From Bacillota bacterium (GTDB lineage Bacteria > Bacillota > DTU030), in NCBI GenBank assembly GCA_012841005.1, contig DUVO01000212.1, positions 1 to 10,831 of the forward strand: a DNA stretch of 10,831 bases. Reading direction: 5' to 3'. The position numbers and the translations under genes are program-made. Below the pieces are notes generated by a model that saw only the letters and a list, made by a program, of their open reading frames with translations, was not told the origin of the DNA and made no database searches. Below are positions 8,148-8,465 of the stretch, in pieces. Each line of letters starts with the position of its first letter. Positions within the stretch are counted from its first letter, which is position 1.

Positions 8148-8189
8148 AAAAACCTCTCGACACCCGACATTTGCCAGGGACGAGAGGTT
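8148..8189 (-). terminator. T-box-controlled intrinsic terminator
   Basis: AACCTCTCG pairs with CGAGAGGTT and is followed by TTTTTA on the minus strand. Its 5' arm includes the TCGTCCC segment that would alternatively pair with the AGGG of the antiterminator, the mutually exclusive arrangement expected for a T-box. It also serves as the 3' end of the tRNA-Ala transcript when leuS is off. Confidence 0.92.
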
Positions 8190-8231
8190 ATTTTCCACCC
8201 GCGGTACCACCCTGTTTGGTAAGAAACAAAT

Positions 8232-8307
8232 TGGTGGAGCTGAGGGGGCTCGAACCCCTGACCTCCTGAATGCCATTCAGGCGCTCTCCCAGCTGAGCTA
8301 CAGCCCC
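8232..8307 (-). tRNA. tRNA-Ala (anticodon GGC)
   Basis: A full 76-base cloverleaf: acceptor GGGGCUG with CAGCUCC, including the G3-U70 wobble pair that is the main alanine identity element; D arm GCUC/GAGC; anticodon arm CCUGA/UCAGG with loop AUGGCAU and anticodon GGC; T arm AGGGG/CCCCU with loop UUCGAGC. Discriminator A73 and an encoded CCA complete the 3' end. It would read GCC and GCU codons. All features look functional. The gene lies inside the leuS T-box leader, upstream of its terminator, so it should be transcribed from the leuS promoter whether or not leuS is read. Flanking AAG-ACAA and TTGT-TT-CTT can extend the acceptor stem by seven pairs in the precursor. Confidence 0.97.
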
Positions 8308-8465
8308 ATCTTGTCTTTACCCGCTTATTATCTTCCATAACTCCGAGGCGAGTTCGGCACATCCTCTCTACCGGTTCCCAGCTACCACCGGCTCTCTGGC
8401 AAGGAGCATCTGCCTACTACTCCCCTTCATCGCCCGGGAACACATTTTCTATTATTACAGACCTT

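Follow-up and report, generated by a model that had tools for sequence, protein, structure and literature searches.

A tRNA-Ala(GGC) gene carried within Stem III of leucine T-box leaders upstream of leuS

A leucine T-box leader that encloses a complete tRNA-Ala(GGC) gene was found upstream of leuS in a Bacillota bacterium (GenBank assembly GCA_012841005.1, contig DUVO01000212.1; the whole stretch analysed, 10,831 nucleotides, is referred to as the window). It is very probable that this locus represents a composite leader, in which a leucine-responsive, transcriptional leuS T-box carries a working tRNA-Ala(GGC) gene at the apex of its Stem III. The evidence lies at the sequence level and comprises the anatomy of the leader, its conservation, the identity of the tRNA, covariation in Stem III, the presence of a single gene copy as judged by pattern, and the retention of the tRNA in loci whose T-box has decayed.

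Anatomy of the leader

The leader specifies leucine (CUC) and lies on the minus strand of the window between rsfS (8855-8505; NCBIfam TIGR00090, 112.3 bits against a cutoff of 56.9), an upstream neighbour that gives context and stands outside the element, and leuS (8120-5634; NCBIfam TIGR00396, 1139.7 bits against a cutoff of 548.4), the regulated gene. The Rfam T-box model RF00230 matches this strand at 8439-8173 over all 219 model positions (83.5 bits, E 2.3e-17, which is below the gathering score of 93), and a tRNA match (RF00005, 8307-8235, 64.5 bits) is nested within it. ARAGORN places an intact tRNA-Ala(GGC) at 8307-8232, in which G3-U70, A73 and an encoded CCA can be read. A complete tRNA-Ala inside the leuS T-box had been proposed in a preliminary description of this DNA, and both programs bear it out. 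All of the parts named there are also present on the minus strand and in the order given: Stem I (8439-8341; it opens the RF00230 match and contains AGUA and the conserved GAACUC region), with the specifier codon CUC at 8352-8350 within GAACUCGCC; the cloverleaf with G3-U70 and CCA; the antiterminator (8213-8176, from the RF00230 alignment), which includes the T-box sequence AGGGUGGUACCGCG at 8213-8200; and an intrinsic terminator (8189-8147) composed of a hairpin at 8189-8151 (dG -24.6 kcal/mol, z -7.9) and a T run.

A single strong promoter had also been claimed, of which there remains a promoter-like site, TTGACT-17-TATAAT at 8494-8466 on the minus strand, that agrees with 11 of 12 consensus positions and is a consensus match only. 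A promoter or terminator between Stem I and the tRNA, which would place them on separate transcripts, is not among the minus-strand promoter-like and terminator-like sites listed by the scan between 8494-8466 and the tRNA, a scan that also misses the real terminator because the loop of the latter exceeds its loop limit. When the whole leader or the Stem III segment was folded by energy, the canonical acceptor stem was not recovered; the antiterminator segment, folded alone, was no better than shuffled sequences (z +0.70). Elsewhere in the window's own genome, tandem T-boxes were observed on one strand (G000:C248:728-938 and 1017-1253; L001 and L003).

Stem III and Stem II

Stem III of T-boxes is bracketed as 5'-RRRxG-Stem III-AA-3', according to the available part of a review (PMC7583486). 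The bracket is kept in the window, with the purine string AAGCG (8326-8322) on the 5' side and AA (8217-8216) on the 3' side, followed by AGGGUGGUACCGCG from 8213. By folding, a Stem III of 12 pairs with one bulge is formed between a 5' arm (8321-8310) and a 3' arm (8230-8218), closing over the tRNA. Stem III is present, not substituted, with the tRNA forming its apical part; the earlier view that the tRNA takes the place of Stem III is refuted by this enclosing helix, whose basal pairs covary across loci. Among 104 distinct loci, the AA is found in 91 and a loose match to RRRxG in 102.

Covariation was assessed in 75 of 99 distinct loci, which were anchored on AG[UC]GG without using pairing, 24 being left out. 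The observed count of standard pairs was not reached in any of 2000 column shuffles for pairs 2, 3, 4, 6, 7 and 8, and was reached in one of 2000 for pair 5; pair 1 is uninformative because the anchor fixes its 5' side, and covariation of pairs 9-12 is not significant. Pairs 2 and 3 show mainly G-C/A-U and U-A/C-G alternation. In register, 466 of 597 cells (78.1%) are paired, compared with 29-49% when the arms are slid by 1-3 positions, and the first pair fails in the chosen register at nine of the 75 loci. In a duplex test of the two arms, a mean of -11.3 kcal/mol was obtained for arms of the same locus versus -7.5 for arms of different loci; as the loci are related, this test and the covariation test are supportive and do not give formal probabilities.

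The absence of Stem II, also noted in the preliminary description, holds for the window, where it is judged by the distance of 48 nt between specifier and tRNA, and does not hold elsewhere: of the 91 loci measured, 11, from the window's genus and class, have a distance of 41-48 nt and the other 80 one of at least 74 nt. The window (at 8327-8340) and its class relatives (L018-L025) represent leucine T-boxes without Stem II and IIA/B, elements that most other carriers measured have, as judged by distance. Glycine T-boxes without these elements are described in the available text of PMC4919913, and they are not required. By each sequence feature tested, the locus is a T-box, save for Stem II.

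Using a regular expression, leuS T-boxes that contain no tRNA were identified in 13 of 30 examined genomes of the same phylum; for the 17 X rows, the lack of a T-box is as scored by a regular expression over 600 bases. In the tRNA-free leaders, a short hairpin fills the interval bounded by the same landmarks, as in GAGUG-GGUAAUUUAUUACC-AA of L213. In one of them (L230, genome G028), the Stem III insert is longer than in the other tRNA-free ones printed.

Conservation of the arrangement and of the tRNA

Two genomes of the same genus match the 296-base element at 92-93%, and one genome of the same family does so at 84% (a second one matches partly, where its contig ends); for eight genomes of the same class, the figure is 76-80%. 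A pattern scan of species genomes, which looks for the T-box sequence after a tRNA T arm and is not specific for alanine, found at least 119 loci. Among the 119 matches listed, 95 have an intact tRNA-Ala(GGC) located 12-31 bases 5' of the T-box sequence (ARAGORN), every nested tRNA in an intact arrangement is tRNA-Ala(GGC), and one locus (L056) is cut by the locus end. Downstream leuS is present in 109 of 112 Ala rows, some of the rows being duplicates; as to the other three, the sequence of L136 and L141 ends no more than 160 bases past the T-box and that of L101 after 1150 bases. According to record titles, the carriers belong to at least six phyla, including Bacillota, Chloroflexota (with Thermomicrobiales), Armatimonadota, Coprothermobacterota, Caldisericota and Actinomycetota, and two taxon labels (one Proteobacteria and one Desulfovibrio bin) may be wrong.

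Several candidates from the scan were rejected. Four loci considered as T-boxes with other tRNAs (L086 Ser, L092 Gln, L102 Gly and L125 Pro) appear to have a tRNA beside unrelated sequence in which no T-box was seen. ARAGORN calls no tRNA at the motif in another 19 of the pattern loci, one of which, L063, is truncated by the edge of its locus; three of the 19 (L051, L123 and L143) resemble ordinary T-boxes, and the rest look like chance.

When 18 related loci were searched with Rfam, a full-length T-box match spanned the tRNA in all of them (four above and 14 below the gathering score), upholding in relatives the nested order described for the window. The best tRNA-clan match at the nested position is RF00005 in 16 of the 18 loci; it is a sub-threshold tmRNA in L061 and L065, and ARAGORN calls tRNA-Ala in both. 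A GAACUC-like specifier motif lies 5' of the tRNA in 94 of the 98 loci having enough sequence. An even draw of 199 genomes from the window's phylum, the window genome included, contained the strict pattern in at least 30 genomes. In 31 genomes that were hand-picked, some for a tRNA resembling the embedded ones, and are not a random sample, the nested tRNA was found together with a variant T-box sequence at L184, L190, L195 and L201 (leuS being absent from the fetched 1.5 kb at L190), and the nested arrangement was found at a contig end in G003.

Additional genes were observed between the T-box and leuS at some loci. They include ilvE (branched-chain aminotransferase) at L068 and L118, above the NCBIfam cutoff, and at L129, by resemblance only. 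A gene of approximately 555 codons resembling acyl-CoA ligases is located there at L053, L071, L124, L139 and L162; the L124 gene, the sole one searched, scored 760.3 bits against a cutoff of 832 for the fatty acid CoA ligase family NF009233.

With respect to the tRNA itself, G3:U70, A73 and a mismatch-free acceptor stem are present in all 104 distinct embedded copies, an encoded CCA in 78 and U at position -1 in 77. Each of the 30 phylum-sample genomes with the strict pattern contains a single match, no more, to the pattern for tRNA-Ala(GGC). By coordinates, this sole match is the embedded tRNA in 23 genomes among the matches listed and in G027, G059 and G104; in the remaining four genomes, it agrees with the embedded tRNA by count and strand only. 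Among 26 genomes from elsewhere, reached via named loci, 21 have one match, always at the embedded place, and the other five have none, their embedded tRNA being missed; therefore, the pattern misses some variants. In the single-contig complete genome G005, 46 tRNA matches were found with Rfam, and 43 genes were read by ARAGORN in 30 loci, including one tRNA-Ala(GGC), one tRNA-Ala(CGC), and one tRNA-Leu(GAG), which is cognate to CUC. In the window genome, which is incomplete, none of the 20 tRNA matches is tRNA-Leu(GAG). Single-copy status, as determined by pattern, argues for a tRNA-Ala that is processed, charged and used in translation.

Decayed forms of the leader were recognised by eye at three loci. 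The T-box sequence is lost in L188, and neither Stem I nor an antiterminator is recognisable in L200 and L202; all three retain the tRNA-Ala(GGC) and a terminator-like hairpin before leuS. A promoter-like TTGACA, read by eye and given with L200 and L202, lies upstream of the tRNA, and each of the three genomes has one tRNA-Ala(GGC) by pattern. The tRNA appears to outlive the switch, as expected if the tRNA were the indispensable part. Its invariant identity elements and its survival in the decayed loci indicate that it is preserved in its capacity as a tRNA and not simply as an arm of the RNA.

A tree built from 131 LeuS N-terminal fragments was used to examine the history of the arrangement. 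On it, the embedded label requires 13 changes, of which eight are forced by supported branches, versus 29.6 for shuffled labels; the label is found to either side of the midpoint root. Given these changes, the tree does not support a single gain followed by neither loss nor transfer. An old origin with subsequent losses and transfers would fit the LeuS tree, and the constancy of tRNA identity and site would speak against several independent gains.

Proposed mechanism, alternatives and significance

In the proposed composite leader, one promoter would drive both tRNA-Ala and leuS, and the polymerase would pass through Stem I, the tRNA, and then the antiterminator/terminator. Because the tRNA is upstream of the decision point, every full transcript would contain it, whether leuS is read or not; tRNA-Ala would be produced irrespective of leuS readthrough, and the T-box terminator would double as the end of the tRNA transcript. 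The folded tRNA may draw the two arms of Stem III together, so that the discriminator (RRRxG-Stem III-AA and the antiterminator) would form as in ordinary T-boxes and test uncharged tRNA-Leu(GAG). Excision of the tRNA, probably by RNase P at the 5' end and by an endonuclease or RNase Z with trimming at the 3' end, would sever Stem I from the leuS mRNA and leave only the pairs of Stem III joining the halves. Constitutive tRNA production, excision and working leucine sensing are the parts of this model that we infer.

Several other explanations were weighed against a working tRNA within a working T-box. An assembly error or a chance neighbourhood of tRNA and T-box has a negligible probability: the window assembly is fragmented (339 contigs), but the arrangement is repeated in many independent assemblies, including the single-contig G005, and recurs in close as well as distant relatives, a conservation by which chance is excluded. 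The absence from relatives and the signs of misassembly that would have counted against the preliminary description were not encountered. It is highly improbable that the tRNA is only a structural arm that does not work as a tRNA. It does cap Stem III where tRNA-free relatives carry a short hairpin; however, every embedded copy found has the anticodon GGC, G3:U70 and A73 are invariant (104/104), the gene is single copy by pattern in 30/30 genomes, and the tRNA is retained in the three loci where the T-box has decayed. The converse, in which the T-box no longer works, the tRNA and terminator alone matter and leuS is expressed by plain readthrough, is improbable to a lesser degree. Such a state is suggested by the decayed forms L188, L200 and L202, but the CUC specifier motif (94/98) and the conserved AA (91/104) persist, the T-box model matches at full length in 18/18 loci, Stem III covaries, and ilvE, a gene of the leucine pathway, stands behind the T-box in the two loci tested.

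A more far-reaching, though doubtful, possibility is regulatory coupling, with processing of the nested tRNA being part of the switch. Two forms share this doubtful standing jointly: cleavage by RNase P could part the sensor from the mRNA and fix the decision, or docking of tRNA-Leu could change how accessible the tRNA-Ala precursor is to RNase P, whereby the leucine state would tune maturation of tRNA-Ala. Judging from the coordinates, excision of the tRNA necessarily cuts between sensor and antiterminator; moreover, carriers over a wide range have the same tRNA identity and the same site in the Stem III loop, and Stem III is retained as a helix adjoining the tRNA. RNase P is inhibited when a 5' leader pairs with the 3' RCCA, as reported in the available part of PMC9433436, and flanking helices could therefore matter. 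On the other hand, the decision point lies only some tens of bases 3' of the tRNA and may precede the action of RNase P, and common descent by itself might preserve the site. It may tentatively be imagined that this is an old, multi-phylum composite RNA that physically couples the maturation of an essential tRNA to an amino-acid riboswitch, in which RNase P excision divides the T-box, Stem III holds together a two-piece switch, and tRNA-Leu binding affects the timing of tRNA-Ala release.

The composite leader resembles known systems in part. It shares with ordinary leuS T-boxes (RF00230) the CUC Stem I, RRRxG-Stem III-AA, the T-box sequence, the antiterminator, the terminator and the downstream leuS, and differs in that Stem III holds a complete tRNA-Ala gene and, in the window's lineage, in the lack of Stem II. 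In mixed tRNA-mRNA operons, a tRNA gene is co-transcribed with a protein gene. There too, the tRNA must be excised from a transcript that also bears the protein gene, whereas here it lies within a regulatory structure, before a conditional terminator, and its excision would split the switch. Alphaproteobacteria offer another case of a tRNA gene lying inside a functional genetic element: according to the available text of PMC8124441, their tRNA-Sec gene is nested in selB; the host in that case is a protein-coding gene, and here it is a tRNA-sensing riboswitch. No report of a T-box with a nested tRNA was found in the literature searched, although a mention in Vitreschak 2008 or Gutierrez-Preciado 2009 is possible; the available parts of the TBDB paper (PMC7778990) and of a 2008 T-box survey (PMC2494555) do not mention one.

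Insertions in T-boxes are called unexplained in the available part of the review cited above (PMC7583486), and the nested tRNA may give a function to one of them. The carriers named as strains in record titles, which include Syntrophomonas wolfei subsp. methylbutyratica, S. palmitatica, Thermosyntropha lipolytica and two Desulfofundulus species, make the arrangement open to experiment. A T-box senses one tRNA and here encodes another, often the sole tRNA-Ala(GGC) found in the genome. The riboswitch would thus host an essential RNA gene in its sensing domain, which raises the question of how a switch that is cut survives.
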